The translations under genes and the position numbers were made by a program. DNA of 64,000 nucleotides, taken from the NCBI GenBank assembly GCA_016865015.1, contig CP018226.1:124001-188000 (forward strand), written 5' to 3'. The notes under the pieces were generated by a model, which was not told the origin of the DNA, did no database searches, and saw nothing but the letters and a program-made list of their open reading frames with translations. This DNA comes from Rhizobiales bacterium IMCC20636 (GTDB lineage Bacteria; Pseudomonadota; Alphaproteobacteria; Rhizobiales; GCA-2746425). Position 1 is the stretch's first letter. Each line of letters opens with the position of its first letter. Shown one piece after another: positions 16,504 through 25,372 of the stretch.

Positions 16504-16580
16504 TGGTGATCCCGACTGGATTCGAACCAGTGACCCTCAGATTAGGAATCTGATGCTCTATCCTGCTGAGCTACGGGACC
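16504..16580 (-). tRNA. tRNA-Arg (anticodon CCT)
   Basis: 77-nt cloverleaf on the minus strand: acceptor GGTCCCG / CGGGATC, D arm GCTC...GAGC, anticodon arm TCAGA-TTCCTAA-TCTGA with CCT at positions 34-36, T arm ACTGG-TTCGAAT-CCAGT, and an encoded 3' CCA. It reads AGG codons. No integrase or att-like duplication was seen nearby. Confidence 0.96.
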
Positions 16581-16728
16581 CCAGCACCTTTACGAGCCCT
16601 TGTTAGCAAAGGCTGACAGGAAATCAAAGTATGAAGCTGCGCAGGATGCATTTTTGCTGATTGTCATTCCAGCCTTGCGGTTGGCTGGATGGCGGGTTAA
16701 CTCAGGGCGTCAAGCTTAGGAGCGATTG

Positions 16729-17391
16729 ATGGCCCCCAAAACCAAGCGGATCGGCGCACCCTTCGGTCCGCGCGCGGTCAATATTGCGGAAACACGCGAG
16801 CGTATTTTGAAGGCTGCCATCGAGCAATTTGCGCAAGGTGGTTTTTCCGGTGCGCGGATTGAGGTGATCTGCAAACATGCGGATGTCAATCCGCGTATGA
16901 TCTATCATTATTTCGGAGACAAGGCCGGGCTGTATGTTGCGGTGCTGGAGCATGTATTGGGTCAGTTGCGCACTGAAGAACTGAAACTCGATGTGTCCCA
17001 AAGCGAGCCCCTGGAGGGGCTCCTGACAATGTTCGACTTTATTCACGGGCATTTCGCCAGTCATCCTGAACTGATCAGATTGCTGTCCTCCGAAAACCTT
17101 CTGGAAGGCGCGTTTTTGAAAAACTCCGATGCTACGCCATCAGTGGCTTCTCCGGTGGTTGAGCATATTGATACGTTGTTAAAGCGTGGCGAGGCTGACG
17201 GAGTGATCCGCACCGGTCTTGACCCTTTGCACCTCTATGTTGTGATGGTGGGGCTATCCTATTTTCACAAATCCAATGCCCATACGCTGTCCATCATCTG
17301 GGGCAGTTTGATGACATCGGAGGCTTGGCAGAATGAGCACAAGCGCATTGCGCGCGATATGCTGAAGACTTTTCTGAGGCCATGCCTCTAA
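16729..17391 (+). CDS. TetR/AcrR family transcriptional regulator
   Basis: 220-residue one-component regulator. The N-terminal helix-turn-helix is ETRERILKAAIEQFAQGGFS followed by VICKHADVNPRMIYHYFGDK, the standard TetR DNA-binding pattern. The ligand domain DPLHLYVVMVGLSYFHKSN is similar in layout to RutR/NicS-type regulators of nitrogen-heterocycle catabolism. It lies directly upstream of, and in the same direction as, the BMP/RutB-like operon, separated by 260 bp that hold a palindrome and a sigma-54 promoter, so it is a plausible pathway regulator. ATG 16729 was chosen over the adjacent TTG 16726. Confidence 0.88.
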   Translation: MAPKTKRIGAPFGPRAVNIAETRERILKAAIEQFAQGGFSGARIEVICKHADVNPRMIYHYFGDKAGLYVAVLEHVLGQLRTEELKLDVSQSEPLEGLLTMFDFIHGHFASHPELIRLLSSENLLEGAFLKNSDATPSVASPVVEHIDTLLKRGEADGVIRTGLDPLHLYVVMVGLSYFHKSNAHTLSIIWGSLMTSEAWQNEHKRIARDMLKTFLRPCL

Positions 17392-17443
17392 ATTGGTCAC
17401 ACTTCTAATTCGCTGAAATTATGGGCATATCTGCTGCATTATT

Positions 17444-17461
17444 GCGCAGAAATTTCTGCGC
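17444..17461. promoter_or_regulatory. 18-bp perfect palindrome upstream of the sigma-54 promoter
   Basis: GCGCAGAAATTTCTGCGC, a perfect inverted repeat, lies 53 bp after the tetR stop and about 130 bp before the -24 element. It could be a TetR-family operator or an enhancer-type site for a sigma-54 activator. It is not followed by a U-run, so a terminator is less likely. Confidence 0.5.
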
Positions 17462-17590
17462 GTCTGTTCGCATTCCTGTCAATTCCGGCTTTCATTTCCT
17501 GAAATTCTGGGGCTCTCGGCCTGCCAAGTGCTTTTAGTATATGATTTTTTACTAATTGTCGCAGACGCTGGCATGGGAAGCTTTATGTTC

Positions 17591-17606
17591 TGGCACGCAG
17601 ATTGCA
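17591..17606 (+). promoter_or_regulatory. sigma-54 (RpoN) -24/-12 promoter of the BMP importer operon
   Basis: TGGCACGCAGATTGCA matches the RpoN consensus TGGCAC-N5-TTGCW at every fixed position, with exactly 10 bp between the -24 GG (17592-17593) and the -12 GC (17604-17605). It lies 45 bp before the ATG at 17652. Such promoters need an enhancer-binding activator such as NtrC, which suggests nitrogen control. Confidence 0.85.
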
Positions 17607-17651
17607 TTAGTAAATTTGTAATTACTATTTCTCTCTCATCTGGAGCGCATT

Positions 17652-18731
17652 ATGAAGCTACGTCACATACTTGCAGCATCGCTCGCTATCTCAGCGATGA
17701 TAACTGCTCCTGTCCTCACCCCTGCATCCGCCGATCAGAATAAAATCGGTTTCGTGTATGTCGGCCCCGTTGCAGATTTCGGCTACAACATGTCGATGGA
17801 TCTGGGTCGCATCTACCTTGAAGAGCAAATTGAGGGTATCGAAACATCCTCTTTTGAGAATATCCCTGAATCCGCTGAAGTCGAGCAGGTCATGGAACGA
17901 CTTGTGCAAAGTGGTCATGGCATCATTTTTGCGACAAGCTATGGCTATCTTGATTATGCCATCTCGCTTGGCAAGAAATATCCTGATGTGACCTTTTTGC
18001 ATGCCGGCGGTCTGAAAACTTCCGAAAATGTCGGAACCTACTGGGCCGACAGTGATGATGGCATGTATCTGGCCGGTGTGGTTGCCGGATCCAAATCGGA
18101 GTCCGGCAAGCTTGGATTCGTCGGGGCCTTTCAGATTCCGCAATTGTTCCGGTCCATCAACGCTTTCACTCTGGGTGCACAATCTGTCAATCCCGACGCC
18201 ACTGTGACGGTTGTCTGGACCGGTGGCTGGTGGGAGCCACAGAAAGAAGCTGAAGCGGTCAATGCATTTGCCGATGAAGGTATCGATGTGATTGCCGAGC
18301 AGGTCGACAGTCCGATCACCATTGCCCAAACGGCTGAAAAACGCGGCGTCTTTGTCATTGGCAAGGATGTCAACATCATGGACCGTGCCCCCGCAGCCTG
18401 GCTGACAGGTGTTTCCTGGAACTGGGGCCCGATGATGAAACAGATGGTTGACGAAATTCACGCCGGTACATGGGAATCATCTCATGTGCGCAGTGATCTT
18501 GCTGGCGGTGCTGCGGTGTTTGATCCGTTTGGTGAAGCTGTCGCTGAAGCAACCCAAACCAAGGTGCTGGCTCTCAAGGATGACATCATCAGCGGATCCA
18601 AAAACATCTGGGAAGGTCCTATCCTGAGCCAGGATGGTACAGAAGTTGCAGCAGCTGGAGTAGCTCTGGATATGGATGCGGTGGAAACCATGGACTTCCT
18701 TGTGAAAGGCGTCGTTGGATCGACCAACTGA
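17652..18731 (+). CDS. BMP family ABC transporter substrate-binding protein
   Basis: Periplasmic binding protein of the BMP/PnrA/NupN class, which bind purine nucleosides and related ligands in characterised cases. The 359 residues begin with a signal peptide cleaved after PVLTPASA, followed by NKIGFVYVGPVADFGYNMSM, typical of BMP proteins. Other family patterns are IFATSYGYLDYAISLGKKYP and VAGSKSESGKLGFVGAF. It is the first gene of an operon with a hydrolase, a Rid protein, one ATPase and two permeases, transcribed from a sigma-54 promoter. A stem-loop follows the stop codon. The actual ligand is unknown. Confidence 0.93.
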   Translation: MKLRHILAASLAISAMITAPVLTPASADQNKIGFVYVGPVADFGYNMSMDLGRIYLEEQIEGIETSSFENIPESAEVEQVMERLVQSGHGIIFATSYGYLDYAISLGKKYPDVTFLHAGGLKTSENVGTYWADSDDGMYLAGVVAGSKSESGKLGFVGAFQIPQLFRSINAFTLGAQSVNPDATVTVVWTGGWWEPQKEAEAVNAFADEGIDVIAEQVDSPITIAQTAEKRGVFVIGKDVNIMDRAPAAWLTGVSWNWGPMMKQMVDEIHAGTWESSHVRSDLAGGAAVFDPFGEAVAEATQTKVLALKDDIISGSKNIWEGPILSQDGTEVAAAGVALDMDAVETMDFLVKGVVGSTN

Positions 18732-18752
18732 TCCGGGCTTGTCCTTGTATCT

Positions 18753-18785
18753 GCGGGGCCGGAGCAGCTTGGAATCCGGTCCCGC
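18753..18785 (+). terminator. intercistronic stem-loop after the BMP binding-protein gene
   Basis: 11-bp stem GCGGGGCCGGA / TCCGGTCCCGC (one G-U pair) with an 11-nt loop, followed by a pyrimidine run TTCCCTTTC. It stands 21 bp after the binding-protein stop and 28 bp before the next start. It is likely a partial terminator or 3'-end stabiliser that raises binding-protein mRNA over downstream genes. Confidence 0.65.
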
Positions 18786-18813
18786 TTCCCTTTCACCTGT
18801 CTGGAGATATTTC

Positions 18814-19626
18814 ATGCCTATCGCCCCCAAATTACTTCAGCTTTCCGGTCAGCTGATGGGCCAGTCCGAAAGTGAAGGCTGGATCGTGACATCCGATCAC
18901 GTGGATATGACCCGTCCTGCACAACCGATCCGCGCAATGCATCTGGATGCTGAACCACAATCAATCACCATCGATGCCAACAAGACAGCGTTGCTGATTG
19001 TCGACATGCAGAATGATTTTTGCACTGAAGGCGGCTGGCTGCATTCACGGGGTATCGATATCAGCCCGAACAGAAAGCCAATCGAACCGTTGAAAGCCTG
19101 CATCGAAGCCTGCCGCGCTCATGATGTGCCGGTGGTCTGGGTCAATTGGGGTGTGCGCAAGGATCTGCTGAACATCGCACCTTCCCTGCAACACGCCCAT
19201 AATCCACATGGCGATGAAACCAATCTTGCCCAGCCGGTTCCCGGAACCCGCTCAGAAGTCATTGCTGCAGGCAGTTGGGGAGCTAAAGTTGTCGATGAAA
19301 TCAATCCGGGTGACGCTGATCATCAGATCACAAAACATCGCTTCAGCGCATTCTGGGACTGTGAGACAGATGCGGTGTTGCGCAATCTGGGGGTAAAAAC
19401 CCTTCTGATTGGCGGCGTCAATATGGATCAATGTGTCATGACTACGCTCGAGGACGCCAGCTTTCTTGGCTATGATACGGTTCTCGTGGAAGATTGCACG
19501 GCCACCACTTCGCCTGCATTTTGTGTGCAATCAGTGCTCTACAATGTCAAATTGCTGTTCGGGTTTGTAACGCAGTCCGACACCATCGTCTCGGCCCTCG
19601 ATGTCGCTGAAGAGGCGGCGCCATGA
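18814..19626 (+). CDS. cysteine hydrolase, isochorismatase family, RutB-like
   Basis: 270-residue amidohydrolase with the cysteine-hydrolase triad: D64 in LLIVDMQNDF, K174 in ITKHRFSAFWD and nucleophile C207 in GVNMDQCVMTT. Several features follow ureidoacrylate amidohydrolase RutB rather than plain isochorismatases: the long N-terminal arm, the GGWLHSRGIDIS stretch, the GSW motif before the lysine loop, the F-W after it, and the C-terminal LYNVKLLFGFVT. RutB releases carbamate/ammonia from ureidoacrylate in uracil breakdown. The ATG at 18814 has GGAGA upstream. It overlaps the next gene by ATGA. The substrate assignment is an inference. Confidence 0.85.
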   Translation: MPIAPKLLQLSGQLMGQSESEGWIVTSDHVDMTRPAQPIRAMHLDAEPQSITIDANKTALLIVDMQNDFCTEGGWLHSRGIDISPNRKPIEPLKACIEACRAHDVPVVWVNWGVRKDLLNIAPSLQHAHNPHGDETNLAQPVPGTRSEVIAAGSWGAKVVDEINPGDADHQITKHRFSAFWDCETDAVLRNLGVKTLLIGGVNMDQCVMTTLEDASFLGYDTVLVEDCTATTSPAFCVQSVLYNVKLLFGFVTQSDTIVSALDVAEEAAP

Positions 19627-20108
19627 GCGAGAGGTTCGCCACTTTGGACATCGAGCAGCGTTTGATTGATTTGCAGATAGAACTGCCTGCGGTTCCACGG
19701 CCTATTGCAAATTTCGTGCCCTGGCAACGCCATGGGGACATCATATATCTGGCTGGTCAGGTGTGTGAGTTGAATGGAGATGCAGTCTACAAGGGCAGGG
19801 TCGGAGATGTGGTTGATCTGGCTGCGGCTCAGGACGGTGCGCGTATCTGTGCTCTCAATCTGCTGGCCGCCTTACGCGAAGCGTTGGGGCATGATCTGAA
19901 CCGGGTAAGCTCCTGTCTGCGGCTGGGTGGTTTTGTCCATTGCGCGCCGGACTTCCTGTCAGTTCCCCATGTCATAAATGGCGCTTCTGACCTGTTTCAT
20001 GACTTGTTCGGTCCGACTATCGGTGCTCATGCCCGGACGGCTGTGGGCGTTGCCCAATTGCCGCGTGGTGCGAGTGTCGAAGTCGACGCCATTTTTGCGG
20101 TGAGCTGA
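19623..20108 (+). CDS. RidA family protein (RutC-like role proposed)
   Basis: 161-residue Rid-family protein of the longer YjgF_endoribonc type. Recognisable parts are IANFVPWQRHGDIIYLAGQV, a domain strand SSCLRLGGFVHCAPDFLSVP and the C-terminal GPTIGAHARTAVGVAQLPRG, where R precedes TAVGVAQLP as in active Rid proteins. In uracil degradation the Rid protein RutC acts after RutB on 3-aminoacrylate. Here the two genes overlap by ATGA in the same order, so an enamine or imine deaminase step is plausible. The true substrate is unknown. Confidence 0.86.
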   Translation: MSERFATLDIEQRLIDLQIELPAVPRPIANFVPWQRHGDIIYLAGQVCELNGDAVYKGRVGDVVDLAAAQDGARICALNLLAALREALGHDLNRVSSCLRLGGFVHCAPDFLSVPHVINGASDLFHDLFGPTIGAHARTAVGVAQLPRGASVEVDAIFAVS

Positions 20109-20110
20109 GC

Positions 20111-21607
20111 GTGTCCGGTCCGGTTGTGGAATTCAAGGCAGCGACAAAGCGATTTGGTGCAACGGTAGCGGTTGACACAGCCACGCTCGACATTCGTTCT
20201 GGCGAGGTTCTGGCGGTGCTGGGTGAAAATGGCGCCGGTAAATCCACCCTGATGAAAATGCTGTATGGTATTCACCCACCCAGTGAAGGCCACATTCTGA
20301 TTGATGGCAAGCCAAGCGCCGTACAGGGGCCGGCAGATGCCATGCGCAATGGTATTGGCATGGTGTTTCAGCACTTCTCGCAATTTCCTGCGCTGTCGGT
20401 GCGCGACAATCTTCTTCTGGCCTGGCCGAAAACGCCGTTCTGGACCGGACGCAGGAATGCGGGCATCGCGCCAGCATTGGCAACGCTGGCAGAATTGGCA
20501 CCGCATATCGATCCGGATGTCAGAGTCGCCGATCTGTCGGTTGGTGAGCAACAATTGGTTGAATTGTCCAAAGTGCTCAACATTTCAGCCCGTATCGTGA
20601 TTTTTGATGAGCCTACATCGGTTCTGACCCCCGCCGAAGCGCATAATCTCCATGGCTTCATTCGTCGACTGGCGGATGATGGCATGGCCGTGATTCTGAT
20701 TACCCACAAGCTGGCGGACGTCACAGCCTGCGCAGACCGAATCGCAGTCATGCGGCGTGGTGCCATCGTGGATGTGTCAGCAAGCGGCGAAAAGCCGATC
20801 TCCAGTATTGTTTCGCTGATGATGGGAAAGGAGATCAAGAGGACCTTGACTGCACCCAAACCCATAAAGCAGCGGGTTGAACAACTGTTCCTCAACAATG
20901 TCTGTGCAAAGGCACCAGGCATGGAGCTGAGGAATATTTCGTTGCGGATTGCGAAGGGCGAAGTTTTGGGGATTGCCGGTGTTGCGGGGAATGGCCAGTC
21001 ATTGTTGGCCGATGTGATTGCGGGCCTCCATCCGATCACCAGCGGTGACGTTGTTCTGGAGGGGCAGAGTATTGCCCGTCGCGATGTCAGACAAACGCTG
21101 GCAACGCCGCTTGGATATATCCCGGAACAGCCTCGCGAAAATGCAGTCGTTGAAGATATGACCCTGCTGCGCAATCTCAATCTGCGCGCCCTGGCGGCCG
21201 GAAGCAGAGTCGATGATGAAGCTCTCGATCTGCTGTCGCGCTTCAACGTAAATCCGCCGGAACCAGGTCGGTTGGCGGGGTCCTTGTCTGGTGGAAATTT
21301 GCAGAAACTTGTCAGTGCACGGGAGCTAGGGACGCCCCGGTCGGGCGTTCTGGCCTGTTATCCAACTATGGGTCTGGATCTGGCAGCGATTGAGATGGTC
21401 TATCAGGAATTGTTTGCACAGGCAGAAGCAGGAGCTGCCGTGATCTGGATTTCTGAAGATCTGGATGACCTCATGCTCGCGGCTCATCGTATTGCCATTT
21501 TGCGAGAAGGCGAGGTGGTGGCGGTCAAAGACAATGACGGTACGCTCAGCCGTGACGAGATAGGCGCCCTCATGACCGGCTTGCGTATAGATGAGGTCGC
21601 GGCATGA
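20111..21607 (+). CDS. BMP-type (nucleoside-like) ABC transporter ATP-binding protein, duplicated
   Basis: 498-residue protein with two nucleotide-binding domains. The first has a full Walker A (GENGAGKST, residues 38-46), Q-loop FQHFSQFPALSV, signature LSVGEQQLVEL and Walker B IVIFDEPTSVLTP. The second is degenerate: its P-loop reads GVAGNGQSLLADV without GKS/T, and Walker B is replaced by ACYPTMGLDLAA, although SLSGGNLQKL is kept. That asymmetry is normal for NupO/RbsA-like ATPases. GTG start at 20111, 2 bp after the Rid stop, and ATGA overlap with the first permease. Confidence 0.93.
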   Translation: MSGPVVEFKAATKRFGATVAVDTATLDIRSGEVLAVLGENGAGKSTLMKMLYGIHPPSEGHILIDGKPSAVQGPADAMRNGIGMVFQHFSQFPALSVRDNLLLAWPKTPFWTGRRNAGIAPALATLAELAPHIDPDVRVADLSVGEQQLVELSKVLNISARIVIFDEPTSVLTPAEAHNLHGFIRRLADDGMAVILITHKLADVTACADRIAVMRRGAIVDVSASGEKPISSIVSLMMGKEIKRTLTAPKPIKQRVEQLFLNNVCAKAPGMELRNISLRIAKGEVLGIAGVAGNGQSLLADVIAGLHPITSGDVVLEGQSIARRDVRQTLATPLGYIPEQPRENAVVEDMTLLRNLNLRALAAGSRVDDEALDLLSRFNVNPPEPGRLAGSLSGGNLQKLVSARELGTPRSGVLACYPTMGLDLAAIEMVYQELFAQAEAGAAVIWISEDLDDLMLAAHRIAILREGEVVAVKDNDGTLSRDEIGALMTGLRIDEVAA

Positions 21608-22629
21608 GTCGATCGGCTTTTACGACCGGCCTGGTGACGGCGTTGGCGTTTGCCGTGTTGATTCTGGTGTTTTTTGCACTGCTCGGAAAACCGCCTTTCG
21701 TCATGGTCTCAAATCTGGTGATCTATGCTGTTGGTGACACCTATTCCATCTCCCAGACCTTTGCCAAGACAACGCCAATTCTGCTCTGTGCGCTGGCGGC
21801 AGCCGTACCCGGACGGCTTGGCCTGATTTCCGTGGGTGCTGAAGGGCAGCTTTATGCGGGAGCCATTGCTGGAACCGGGGCGGTGCTTCTTGCGCCTGCT
21901 TTGCCCGCGGTCCTGCTGGTACCCTTCATGCTGGCAAGCGCAGCGCTGGGTGGCGCCGCATACGGTTGTGTGCCTGGCTTGCTGCGTGCCCGTTTGCAGA
22001 TCAACGAGACCATTACCACTCTGGTGTTGAATTATGTTTCAGTTCTGCTCGTGAATGCGCTGGTATTCGGGCCCTGGAAAGATCCTGAAAGCCAGGGTTG
22101 GCCCGCGACAGCGTTCTTTCCGCAGGAGGCAATTCTGCCATCCCTGCCTGGCACACGCATTCATCTGGGCCTGTTGCTGGCGATTGTCTTCGCCATAGGC
22201 CTGCATGCGTTTTTCACGCGCGGACCTTCTTCGCAGAAAATCCGAATCCTGGCAGGCAACCGAAAGGTGGGTGAAATGTTCGGGTTGAATTTCGGGTTCT
22301 GGGTGGTGGCGATGATGTCACTTGGTGGCGCGATTGCGGGCATTGCCGGGATTGCAGAGGTTTCGGCGATACAGGGCCGTCTGCAGCCGAATATTTCGCT
22401 CGGATACGGGCTGACAGGGTTTCTGGTGGCGTGGTTGTCGCGGCATCAACCATTGGTCATCGTTCCGGTCGCGTTTCTGGTTGGTGGTCTTGTGGCGGCC
22501 AGTGACGCCTTACAGCTTTTCGCCAAGGTTCCGGCATCCAGTGCCGTCATATTACAGGGATTGCTGTTTGCCACCGCATTGGCCGTGCCAGGATTAATGA
22601 AACAGATGAGGTTGGGTTTTGGACGCTGA
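21604..22629 (+). CDS. ABC transporter permease, BMP/nucleoside type
   Basis: 341-residue inner-membrane permease of the NupP/BPD_transp_2 type with roughly nine hydrophobic segments. The signature GAEGQLYAGAIAGTGAVLLA (periplasmic-facing coupling region of this class) and QINETITTLVLNYVSVLLVN are clear, as is the late AIAGIAGIAEVSAIQGRLQP. It starts with ATG overlapping the ATPase stop (ATGA) and ends inside the next permease gene, so all three transport genes are translationally coupled. Confidence 0.92.
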   Translation: MSRSAFTTGLVTALAFAVLILVFFALLGKPPFVMVSNLVIYAVGDTYSISQTFAKTTPILLCALAAAVPGRLGLISVGAEGQLYAGAIAGTGAVLLAPALPAVLLVPFMLASAALGGAAYGCVPGLLRARLQINETITTLVLNYVSVLLVNALVFGPWKDPESQGWPATAFFPQEAILPSLPGTRIHLGLLLAIVFAIGLHAFFTRGPSSQKIRILAGNRKVGEMFGLNFGFWVVAMMSLGGAIAGIAGIAEVSAIQGRLQPNISLGYGLTGFLVAWLSRHQPLVIVPVAFLVGGLVAASDALQLFAKVPASSAVILQGLLFATALAVPGLMKQMRLGFGR

Positions 22630-23542
22630 ACTGTTTGCCATTCTGGCCGCTTGGAGTGTCGCGACCTTGCGCAGCGCAACGCCGCTGATTTTCGCAACCC
22701 TCGGTGAAACACTGACACAGCGTGTGGGTGTCATCAATCTGGGTATTGAAGGTGAAATGCTGATGGGTGCTTGTGTCGGGTTTGCGGTGGGCGTTGCCAC
22801 CAACAATCCTTGGCTGGGTCTGATGGCCGGTGCATTTGCAGGGGCTCTGCTGTCACTTGTCTATGCATTTCTGGTGCTGGTCACACACGCTAATCAGATT
22901 GGGTCTGGTCTGGCAGTCTGGATGATCGCGCTGGGGACCACATCCTATTTCGGTCGTGCGCTTGTGGGGCAGCAGGTCACGCCCTTGCCGAACCTTGGAT
23001 CTGACTGGATGGATGATATTCCCTTTCTGGGTGTGTTGTTCGACCAGATGACGATGGCCGTGCCATTGGCCATTGCGGCTGTTTTGTTTGCAGCCTGGTG
23101 GCTGGCCAATACTCGACCTGGCATGCAATGGCGAGCGGTGGGCGAATCCGCAGTGGTTGCAGCAGAAAATGGTATCAGGCCTCGTCTGGTGCGGCTGCAT
23201 GCCATTGTGGTCGGCGGATTGCTGGCCGGGTTCGGAGGCGCAATCCTATCGGTTGATTACACACAGACCTGGGCTCAGGAGATGACGAAAGGCCGTGGTC
23301 TGATTGCAGTCGGACTTGTCATTGTTGCGCGCTGGAAGCCGATATTGGTGCTGCCGATCTGCCTGGTTTTCGGGTTGGCGGAAGTGGCTACGCTGCGCGT
23401 TCAGTCTGCTGGGTTCGCAGTATCGCCACATCTGTTGGCAGCGGTGCCTTACCTTGTGGTTCTGCTGATCCTGATTGTCAGCCATATCATGCCACGCCGG
23501 GATACAGGCATGCCGGCTGATCTGAAATCGGTGTTTGCGTGA
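22619..23542 (+). CDS. ABC transporter permease, BMP/nucleoside type
   Basis: 307-residue second permease of the importer (NupQ-like). Family patterns are TPLIFATLGETLTQRVGVIN, NLGIEGEMLMGACVGFAVGV and the NGIRPRLVRLHAIVVGGLLA cytoplasmic loop. The reading frame opens with TTG at 22619, 11 bp inside the preceding gene, an unusual start that fits tight coupling. It is the last gene of the operon. The 141 bp to eptA contain only a short GGCT-GAAA-AGCC hairpin. Confidence 0.91.
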   Translation: MDAELFAILAAWSVATLRSATPLIFATLGETLTQRVGVINLGIEGEMLMGACVGFAVGVATNNPWLGLMAGAFAGALLSLVYAFLVLVTHANQIGSGLAVWMIALGTTSYFGRALVGQQVTPLPNLGSDWMDDIPFLGVLFDQMTMAVPLAIAAVLFAAWWLANTRPGMQWRAVGESAVVAAENGIRPRLVRLHAIVVGGLLAGFGGAILSVDYTQTWAQEMTKGRGLIAVGLVIVARWKPILVLPICLVFGLAEVATLRVQSAGFAVSPHLLAAVPYLVVLLILIVSHIMPRRDTGMPADLKSVFA

Positions 23543-23683: not shown

Positions 23684-25372
23684 ATGTTGCGTTTTTTCGG
23701 TCAAAACCGTCCATCTCTTACGCCTGCCAAACTAAGTCTTGTTGTATCGCTTTATCTTCTGGTGGTGCTGAACAGCGCTTTCTGGGCCAGAGGTGCAGAG
23801 GTGTTTTCCGGGCATGGAGGTCAATTGAGCCTGCTGGCGATTGCCCTCTTGCTCGCGCATATTGCCGGCTTGCTGTTGTTTTCCAACAAATATATATTCA
23901 AGCCGGTTCTGATGTCGCTGATTGTTGTGGCTGCAAGCGCAGCATATTTCGTTGATGAGTTTGGTGTCATCATCGATCACGACATGATCCGGAACACCAT
24001 TACCACCACGGTCAATGAAGCCAGACACCTTCTGACTGCTGACTTCTTGTTGCATATAGTGATTTACGCCCTGCTGCCGAGCCTGGCGGTGATGGCGGTT
24101 TTGGTGAAGCGCGCTCCGTTCCGCAAACAAATGGTGCGGACCAGCGCCAATATTGCCGTCTGCCTGCTGGTGGGAACAGCAATCTTGTATGTCAATTACC
24201 CGTCCTATTCGTCTGTCTTTCGCGAGCGCCAGGATTTCATGGGTGTCGTCAATCCTGCCGCCCCGGTCGCCGGTGCGATCAAATATATCCGCAGGGCAAT
24301 GCGTGAAACCAATGTGGTGGCTGCGCCTTATGGCACAGATGCCAGCCCGGGAGCTGCCTTGCGTGCGGCAGAAAAGCCGCTGTTTGTGGTTCTGATTGTG
24401 GGCGAAACAGCACGCGCGCAGAATTTTGGATTGAACGGTTATGCCCGCAACACCACGCCGCAACTGGCGCGGCACGATGTGATCAATTTTACCGACACAT
24501 CCAGTTGTGGCACGGCAACGGCTGTTTCAATGCCCTGCATGTTTTCCCATTTTACCAGAGCGAATTTCAGCAATCGCAAGGCAAAAGCCTCTGAGAACCT
24601 GCTTGATATTGCGCAGCGCGCCGGTTTTCAGGTTGAGTGGTGGGATAATAATACAGGCCACAAGGGCATCGCCAAACGTGTTGCTAACCAGAAATTTTCC
24701 AGCGGGACAGATCCGAACTTCTGTCGTGAAGGTGAGTGTGATGACGGAATTTTGACCGACAAGCTTCGCACTTTCATTGAAAAAGCCAACAGCAATACGT
24801 TGCTGGTCCTGCATCAGATTGGCAGTCACGGACCGACCTATTACCTACGCTACCCGGAGGAAATGGAAGTGTTTGCTCCGGCGTGCCGGACCGCTCAGTT
24901 TGCTGATTGCAGCCAGGAAGAAATCGTAGCCGCCTATGACAATACCATTCTGTATACCGACAAGAATGTGTCCGATATCATTGATCTGGCAGCCCAGAAT
25001 AATGATCGGCTGGCGAGCGCCGTGATCTATATGTCCGACCATGGTGAGTCTCTGGGCGAATCTGGCCTTTATCTGCACGGTGCGCCCTATTTCATTGCGC
25101 CAGACGTGCAGACCAAAGTTCCCTTTGTGGCGTGGTTTTCGGATCAATTCTCCGACCAGATGCACTTGAACACGGATTGCGTGCGCGCAAAGCAGGATGA
25201 TCCGGTGACACATGACGCGCTGTTTCACTCGATGCTCGGCTTGATGGACATCGAGACCAGCGTCCACAATTCCGCGCTTGATCTGTTTGGCAGCTGTGCT
25301 GTGCATGATGATCCGCAGATGGTCATGTCCCATGATCTCCAGCTGGACCCAGCGTCCAAGGCTCTTCAATGA
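23684..25372 (+). CDS. eptA: phosphoethanolamine-lipid A transferase (EptA/MCR family)
   Basis: 562-residue inner-membrane enzyme that moves phosphoethanolamine from phosphatidylethanolamine to lipid A, masking phosphate charge and lowering polymyxin binding. Five hydrophobic segments precede the periplasmic sulfatase-fold domain. Catalytic features visible are E241 in LIVGETARAQNFG, the nucleophile region SSCGTATAVSMPCMFS (T279), and MSDHGESLGESGLYLHG with the D-H zinc ligands, plus many paired cysteines as in EptA. dagK overlaps the stop (ATGA), and a PmrAB-like two-component system lies convergently downstream. The specific acceptor (lipid A or another glycolipid) is inferred. Confidence 0.92.
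   Translation: MLRFFGQNRPSLTPAKLSLVVSLYLLVVLNSAFWARGAEVFSGHGGQLSLLAIALLLAHIAGLLLFSNKYIFKPVLMSLIVVAASAAYFVDEFGVIIDHDMIRNTITTTVNEARHLLTADFLLHIVIYALLPSLAVMAVLVKRAPFRKQMVRTSANIAVCLLVGTAILYVNYPSYSSVFRERQDFMGVVNPAAPVAGAIKYIRRAMRETNVVAAPYGTDASPGAALRAAEKPLFVVLIVGETARAQNFGLNGYARNTTPQLARHDVINFTDTSSCGTATAVSMPCMFSHFTRANFSNRKAKASENLLDIAQRAGFQVEWWDNNTGHKGIAKRVANQKFSSGTDPNFCREGECDDGILTDKLRTFIEKANSNTLLVLHQIGSHGPTYYLRYPEEMEVFAPACRTAQFADCSQEEIVAAYDNTILYTDKNVSDIIDLAAQNNDRLASAVIYMSDHGESLGESGLYLHGAPYFIAPDVQTKVPFVAWFSDQFSDQMHLNTDCVRAKQDDPVTHDALFHSMLGLMDIETSVHNSALDLFGSCAVHDDPQMVMSHDLQLDPASKALQ

Follow-up and report, generated by a model that had tools for sequence, protein, structure and literature searches.

We analysed a stretch of 64,000 nucleotides from Rhizobiales bacterium IMCC20636 (GenBank assembly GCA_016865015.1, contig CP018226.1, positions 124,001 to 188,000 of the forward strand), which we call the window and number from its first base. 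The subject of this work is a group of seven genes at positions 16729-23542 of the window, all on the + strand, which encode a TetR-family regulator (TetR), a BMP-type binding protein (BMP), a cysteine hydrolase (HYD), a Rid-family protein (RID), a duplicated ABC transporter ATPase (ATP) and two permeases (PM1 and PM2). An earlier reading, made from the letters alone (the sequence-only reading), had listed these parts in a single direction and had taken them for a rut-like nitrogen-scavenging locus. Pfam domains and open reading frames (ORFs) confirmed the whole list of parts. The comparisons described below led us to keep nitrogen scavenging and to give up the descent from rut.

Gene content and layout of the locus

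The TetR gene (16729-17391) starts with an ATG at 16729, the mechanical ORF opening with a TTG at 16726, and its product contains the Pfam domains TetR_N and TetR_C_29. The BMP gene (17652-18731) encodes a Pfam Bmp protein of the AtzT type with an N-terminal signal sequence, as judged by eye. The hydrolase gene (18814-19626) encodes an isochorismatase-type enzyme (Pfam Isochorismatase) with the triad D64-K174-C207, belonging to a subfamily with the signature G-V-N-x-D-Q-C. It is followed by the RID gene (19623-20108), whose product of 161 residues matches Pfam YjgF_endoribonc and Ribonuc_L-PSP and carries R138 and E153, by the ATPase gene (20111-21607), with two ABC_tran stretches in one protein, and by the genes for permease 1 (21604-22629) and permease 2 (22619-23542), both with a BPD_transp_2 domain. 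HYD and RID overlap by 4 bases, ATP and PM1 by 4 bases, and PM1 and PM2 by 11 bases; 2 bases separate RID from ATP.

Conservation and distribution of the operon

Comparing the neighbourhoods of hydrolase homologues, as the sequence-only reading had proposed, we found the order TetR-BMP-HYD-RID-ATP-PM1-PM2 repeated in six other loci (L037, L038, L039, L063, L183 and L184), and this repetition indicates that the arrangement is not due to chance. A further locus, in a Variovorax metagenome-assembled genome (L064), has the order ATP-PM1-PM2-BMP-HYD-RID and no TetR gene within the 16.7 kb examined. We count these seven loci and the window as eight operon copies. The gene caller used for L037-L054 and L182-L193 was crude and picked some antisense ORFs; membership in the operon was taken from BLAST matches.

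The operon occurs in few genomes. It was present in 3 of the 198 other genomes of the order sample (L037, L038 and L039). In the class sample of 385 genomes, the source of L183 and L184, it was recognised by its Rid and TetR genes alone in at least 2 of the 384 others; of the Rid matches at 44-54% identity in this sample, those in G277 and G490 alone were examined in detail. In the phylum sample of 398 genomes there were two more hydrolases at E ≤ 1e-80, neither of them within such an operon. When the flanking ORFs of at least 100 residues from the window and the six full copies were compared by BLAST, shared flanks were found only between L183 and L184, which are two genomes of one genus. Two weak matches to the flanks of the window, in L038 (26% identity) and L039 (38%), sit at unlike places, and we rejected the idea of further linked enzymes beside the operon. 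Because few genomes carry it and its flanks are not shared, the operon is, as judged by these sequence comparisons, a rare, scattered and self-contained unit. We found no published description of an operon combining a BMP protein, a cysteine hydrolase and a Rid protein in the open-access literature searched.

The flanking genes do not look like part of it. Upstream, on the other strand, are genes for a tRNA-Arg, a CAP-domain protein and an acyl-CoA-synthetase-like protein; downstream is an EptA-like phosphoethanolamine--lipid A transferase gene (23684-25372; 568.5 bits, domain cut-off 500). The tRNA-Arg gene (cct; 16504-16580, minus strand) lies directly upstream of the operon and, given the scattered distribution, is a possible insertion point. 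One copy, L063, is on a contig labelled Frankia sp. RB7 (Actinomycetota), where an otherwise proteobacterial operon has a sigma-54-like site. Since actinobacteria are not known to have sigma-54, the label or the assembly is suspect.

Predicted promoter and operators between the TetR and BMP genes

Upstream of the BMP gene there is a predicted sigma-54 promoter, TGGCACGCAGATTGCA (17591-17606, + strand), that agrees with the -24/-12 consensus without a mismatch. The sequence-only reading, too, had placed a sigma-54 promoter here. No other perfect match lies in the window, and the 4.79-Mb genome has six in all; the pattern read backwards, as a control, had none. Sites before the BMP gene were also found in four of the seven other operon copies, with 0 mismatches in L037 and L038, 1 in L063 and 2 in L039. 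In this respect there are signs of nitrogen control, in support of the sequence-only reading.

Two candidate operators for the TetR protein flank this promoter: O1, TTAGTATATGATTTTTTACTAA (17534-17555), and O2, TAGTAAATTTGTAATTACTA (17608-17627), the latter immediately 3' of the promoter. The pattern TTAGTA-N10-TACTA, which was derived from these two sites, has no other match in the genome. The sites are 73 bases apart, and the pattern read backwards, as a control, had 8 genome matches. The same pair is present in L037, 72 bases apart and with 2 mismatches in the upstream copy, and near-copies precede the operon in L038, L183 and L184. Among 2000 shuffles of each region, the number reaching the near-copy was 0 for L037, 2 for L038, 10 for L183 and 0 for L184, and it was 1 for L182, a partly related locus described below. 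The pattern is therefore a good candidate for the operator of the local TetR. Nine loci with a more distant TetR were scanned, without a shuffle control, for operator-like palindromes with at most 2 mismatches: five had one (L058, L059, L131, L186 and L215), and in L108, L126, L129 and L214 none was found.

Further upstream lies a perfect 16-base palindrome, CGCAGAAATTTCTGCG (17445-17460). Its arms, GCGCAGA and TCTGCGC, also occur upstream in L037, with a longer spacer, and it is a possible activator site. It is mismatched to the NtrC consensus, TGCACY-N5-RGTGCA. Taken together, the sigma-54 site and the operator-like repeats around the promoter suggest that the locus is nitrogen-controlled and locally repressed, or so it looks from the DNA.

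There may be a parallel in Bradyrhizobium DOA9. An RpoN study of that strain lists a BMP gene that has a sigma-54 site and reports downregulation of an isochorismatase gene lying three locus tags further on (PMC13207237); these genes may correspond to the operon described here or to the sister loci described below.

The binding protein has an AtzT-like pocket with changed polar residues

The BMP protein scored 150.4 bits with the Pfam Bmp model (cut-off 24.1). Its nearest solved relatives are AtzT (242 bits) and, almost as close, 3s99 from Brucella (235 bits), which reportedly holds adenine. Using the list of pocket sites given for AtzT (PMC6834077), we found the same residues in 8 of 8 operon copies, in AtzT numbering Y45, S97, Y98, M139, Q165, S169, W194, Q218 and D220. 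Ser97 and the pair that encloses the ring, Tyr45 and Trp194, are thus kept throughout, and Glu165, Asn169, Asn218 and Asn220 of AtzT are replaced by Gln, Ser, Gln and Asp. From the retained stacking pair and the changes at Glu165 and the other polar sites we infer a ligand that is flat, with an amide-like edge, rather than guanine. A structure prediction of the protein from a two-row alignment had a mean pLDDT of 48.5 and was not used.

These data bear on the possibility that the importer takes up purines, other nucleobases or nucleosides, with the hydrolase as a side activity. Nucleosides are frequent ligands of BMP family proteins, AtzT is reported to retain guanine as well as to bind 2-hydroxyatrazine (PMC6834077), and the closeness of 3s99 points the same way. 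Such a role is nonetheless quite unlikely, because the guanine-hydrogen-bonding Glu165 of AtzT is a Gln, and Asn218 and Asn220 are Gln and Asp, in all eight copies; the operon contains no nucleosidase, deaminase or phosphorylase; and the genome, which holds six BMP genes, already has others placed beside a cytidine deaminase gene (L187), a xanthine dehydrogenase gene (L188) and a guanine deaminase gene (L190). The sequence-only reading had spoken of a nucleoside-type ABC importer. A BMP importer it is, and the nucleoside type has become doubtful, with AtzT as the nearest solved protein and three of the five other BMP loci lying beside the deaminase and dehydrogenase genes just named.

The operon differs from the atzRSTUVW transporter system of Pseudomonas sp. 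ADP in including a hydrolase and a Rid protein and in having a TetR protein in place of AtzR, a LysR-type regulator. The two systems are alike in their binding proteins, AtzT being the closest solved one. The AtzT importer operon is described as having a sigma-54 promoter and as induced by nitrogen starvation (PMC6834077).

The hydrolase groups apart from RutB and BiuH

The triad Asp64, Lys174 and Cys207 is invariant in 14 of 14 rows of one alignment (A1) and in 19 of 19 rows of another (A2). Also present are the other motifs given in the sequence-only reading: GSW, F-W behind the lysine loop and, close to the C-terminus, FGFVT. RutB is the closest solved relative (134 bits), followed by biuret hydrolases (94 bits), and the match to TrtA (64.9 bits) was weaker than those to RutB and BiuH. 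In an AlphaFold model built from 19 sequences (mean pLDDT 80), the fold was nearest to RutB and BiuH. We found no characterised member of the family to which the hydrolase belongs.

A maximum-likelihood tree was calculated from 59 rows that we chose ourselves (29 of 80 loci, 16 further sequences, 5 from operon copies, 4 from plasmids, L040, 3 references and the window), without TrtA or GuuH sequences. The eight operon hydrolases group together (support 100/99) and are nested in a clade of 43 rows; RutB and both BiuH sequences are among the other 16 rows (100/99). The split between these two big clades was placed by midpoint rooting and carries a long-branch warning for L060, L032, L031 and L022. 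Clustering of the hydrolase with a non-ureido family was to count against the sequence-only reading; in this tree it does not cluster with the ureido hydrolases included, RutB and BiuH.

Residues near the active site also separate the groups. Before the catalytic Cys, Asn203 and Asp205 are present in 43 of 43 rows of the clade and Gln206 in 40 of 43, giving the signature G-V-N-x-D-Q-C; the same stretch reads A-T-N-V-C in RutB and T-T-D-V-C in BiuH. At position 177, which corresponds to Lys145 of BiuH and is Tyr in RutB, all 8 operon hydrolases have Phe, and the remaining 35 rows of the clade have Met, Ile or Leu. Outside the clade, one row (L032) has Phe as well.

Use of biuret, triuret or cyanuric acid with a BMP importer would account for some of these likenesses. 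In nitrifiers, BMP-type transporter genes (bmpA-nupABC) are reported to adjoin the biuret and triuret hydrolase genes biuH and trtA (PMC12625717), so that those loci, like the operon, combine a BMP-type ABC importer with isochorismatase-family ureide hydrolases, and the pairing is not new in itself. Gln165 of the binding protein is also common to the BMP proteins of two plasmid loci (L061 and L062, the two examined among 388 matched records); each of these loci also has two cysteine hydrolases and either a ring-opening amidohydrolase or a formamidase. However, Lys145 of BiuH, which is reported to hydrogen-bond biuret (PMC5806882), is replaced by Phe177 in all eight operon hydrolases, and on this ground we rejected the candidate that the enzyme is a biuret hydrolase. 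The score with the BiuH equivalog model was 114.6 bits (370 required), and the tree sets BiuH apart. Unlike the biuret and triuret loci, the operon has a Rid gene and neither atzF nor trtB, and Pfam searches of it found no ring-opening amidohydrolase, allophanate hydrolase or decarboxylase. We consider the use of these compounds very unlikely.

The Rid protein and the relation to rut

The Rid protein, which presumably belongs to subfamily Rid1, has 3d01 and PA0814 as solved relatives. R138 and E153 align with the catalytic Arg of RutC, as identified in PMC8113886, and with its Glu, and the same Arg and Glu are shared by all 8 operon copies and by 3d01. Rid subfamilies with both residues (RidA, RutC and Rid1-3) are predicted imine hydrolases (PMC4433059).

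The presence of these two enzymes raises the possibility of a lower rut pathway, in which ureidoacrylate from other organisms, or its peroxy or methyl form, would be imported and converted to malonic semialdehyde, the hydrolase taking the part of RutB and the Rid protein that of RutC. The chemistry of RutB and RutC leads from ureidoacrylate through 3-aminoacrylate to malonate semialdehyde (PMC8113886). The hydrolase is 33% identical to E. coli RutB over 220 residues, RutB is its best NCBIfam model as well as its closest solved relative, and the genome encodes, at another place, a methylmalonate-semialdehyde dehydrogenase (718.8 bits). Against this, the score with the RutB equivalog model was 148.7 bits, compared to 377.95 required and 457.3 for the E. 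coli RutB control; RutB lies outside the clade of the hydrolase; and Tyr at position 177 and A-T-N-V-C of RutB are changed to Phe and N-x-D-Q-C. The Rid protein, 21% identical to RutC, did not match the RutC model TIGR03610 at E ≤ 0.01 (E. coli RutC 249.8, 169.1 required). The TetR protein scored 50.1 bits with the RutR model (368 required), nearly equal to its scores for ScbR (45) and BetI (42), and is 25% identical to E. coli RutR. A pathway of this kind is thus unlikely.

The sequence-only reading was right about the absence of RutA, for which the best match in the whole genome scored 22.3 bits (498.3 required). The genome has a reductive pyrimidine cluster elsewhere (L192), recognised by a dihydropyrimidinase (603.7 bits), a hydantoinase/carbamoylase-family amidase, an omega-aminotransferase and the methylmalonate-semialdehyde dehydrogenase mentioned above. 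The model scores, the tree and this cluster led us to reject a rut operon that has lost RutA. The rut system (RutR, RutA-G) and the operon are alike in combining a TetR regulator, a cysteine hydrolase with a RutB-like fold and a Rid protein in one unit, and plausibly in the order of their chemistry. They differ in that the operon has no RutA, RutF or RutG, with a BMP-type ABC importer in place of RutG, in that the regulator, the hydrolase and the Rid protein belong to other subfamilies, and in the active-site signature of the hydrolase. Given that none of the three proteins reaches the model of its Rut counterpart, that the genome lacks RutA and that it has a reductive cluster elsewhere, the locus appears not to be rut by descent, although it may work like the lower half of rut. 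The kinship with rut proposed in the sequence-only reading, including a RutR-like regulator, was therefore not sustained. What stands is the type of system it proposed, scavenging of nitrogen by import and hydrolysis, which is still an interpretation.

Proposed function of the operon

Our preferred reading, with a probability of roughly two in three, is that the seven genes form a self-contained nitrogen-scavenging operon for the import of a flat amide or ureido compound, its hydrolysis, and subsequent enamine or imine deamination. We infer every catalytic and binding step, as well as the roles of the cis sequences, the effector and the activator, from the gene content, the conserved order, the cis sequences, the residues and the clades described above. 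Under nitrogen limitation, sigma-54 RNA polymerase and an assumed NtrC-type activator would transcribe the transporter and enzyme genes. The local TetR, on the two operators flanking the promoter, would block transcription, and the substrate or an intermediate would release it. The BMP protein would bind a small flat compound with a ring amide, carboxamide or ureido group, holding it in a stack between Tyr45 and Trp194, and this compound would be imported by the ABC transporter. The hydrolase, using Asp64, Lys174 and Cys207, would cut one amide-type C-N bond to give ammonia or carbamate and an amine. If this amine is or becomes an enamine or imine, the Rid protein could hydrolyze it, which would yield a carbonyl compound and release a further ammonia.

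Several observations weigh against this proposal. The operon is rare in the order and class samples, and in the order sample none of the four genomes of the window's own genus (G080, G040, G115 and G145) has an orthologue of the hydrolase, the best match being 40% identical. Sigma-54 sites are limited to poor ones with 2 mismatches in L183 and L184, and there is none in L064. The operator is weak in L063 (3 mismatches, 86 of 2000 shuffles) and unsupported in L039 (4 mismatches, 262 of 2000), and the pattern is absent upstream in L064. A scan of the 660 bases upstream of the BMP gene gave no match to the NtrC consensus with fewer than 3 mismatches. Asp220 of the binding protein is not specific to the operon and is also present in 3s99, L061, L062 and L188. 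Finally, the Rid protein could serve only for protection from side products.

The operon might also be protective rather than nutritional, taking up and inactivating an amide natural product such as a lactam opened by the hydrolase. RutB is reported to be able to open a gamma-lactam (PMC12553813), and a Streptomyces plasmid carries a member of the wider hydrolase family next to genes for ATP-grasp, methyltransferase and MFS proteins. We regard a protective function as highly improbable, given that the sigma-54 site, the dedicated importer and the Rid protein are better suited to the use of a nutrient.

Related loci and the wider hydrolase family

Among 83 loci of the wider hydrolase family, the BMP gene is divergent from the hydrolase gene in 14, and in 10 of these 14, several of which are close relatives and hence not independent, there is a sigma-54-like site with at most 1 mismatch in the gap. 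There were 15 such sites in 6,074 bp of gaps and 3 in the remaining 208,713 bp of the loci. Loci with sites in the gap include L072, L097, L112, L116, L120, L121 and L130, with sites on both strands in L097, L112, L116, L120 and L130. Recurrent neighbours, for each of which a single representative protein gave the family name, are cupin, creatininase, amidase, Amidohydro_1, FAD-binding, AtzH-like, gamma-glutamyltransferase and peptidase S15 proteins, and the annotated plasmid loci examined have much the same neighbours. These are compatible with breakdown of amides or N-heterocycles. The family is also common in cyanobacteria (L085, L091, L095 and further loci), where a cupin gene often follows the hydrolase gene.

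A set of sister loci, in which a BMP transporter is divergent from a hydrolase and an amidase, resembles the operon in having a hydrolase about 45-50% identical to that of the window and in the sigma-54-like sites noted above for 10 of 14 gaps. Some add a TetR gene and a gamma-glutamyltransferase gene; the TetR protein is 50-53% identical in L058, L059, L126, L129 and L131, and the operator palindrome is present in three of these five. They differ from the window in having a BMP protein of another subfamily (23-28% identity), an amidase and a gamma-glutamyltransferase, and no Rid match.

At L182 (G567:C8:49000-68500) we found a TetR protein 68% identical to that of the operon and two tandem Rid genes with products 66-69% identical to the operon's. 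A near-copy of the operator lies beside the boundary of the TetR and amidase genes. The other genes are mostly unlike those of the operon and encode a formamidase-family protein, an NMT1-type ABC transporter, an S-Me-THD (thiohydantoin desulfurase-like) protein, a luciferase-like monooxygenase and a molybdenum-hydroxylase FAD subunit. The related TetR, the operator-like site and the two Rid copies suggest that L182 may be another route that reaches the inducer and the Rid substrate of the operon.

A broader proposal, which we advance tentatively and with some doubt, is that the G-V-N-x-D-Q-C hydrolases, which occur in Pseudomonadota, Cyanobacteriota, Bacillota, Actinomycetota and Deinococcota, might be a third major family of ureide and amide hydrolases beside RutB and BiuH, serving an undescribed catabolism of natural nitrogen compounds; that the substrate of the operon would be a flat amide new as a nitrogen source; and that one TetR lineage and its operator would control at least three gene sets reaching the same inducing intermediate. 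The operon is a complete, compact and testable unit, with an importer, two enzymes, a regulator, and a predicted promoter and operators. It offers an entry point to a broad hydrolase family, and the ligand of its BMP protein would suggest functions for many loci now annotated with a bare 'cysteine hydrolase'.

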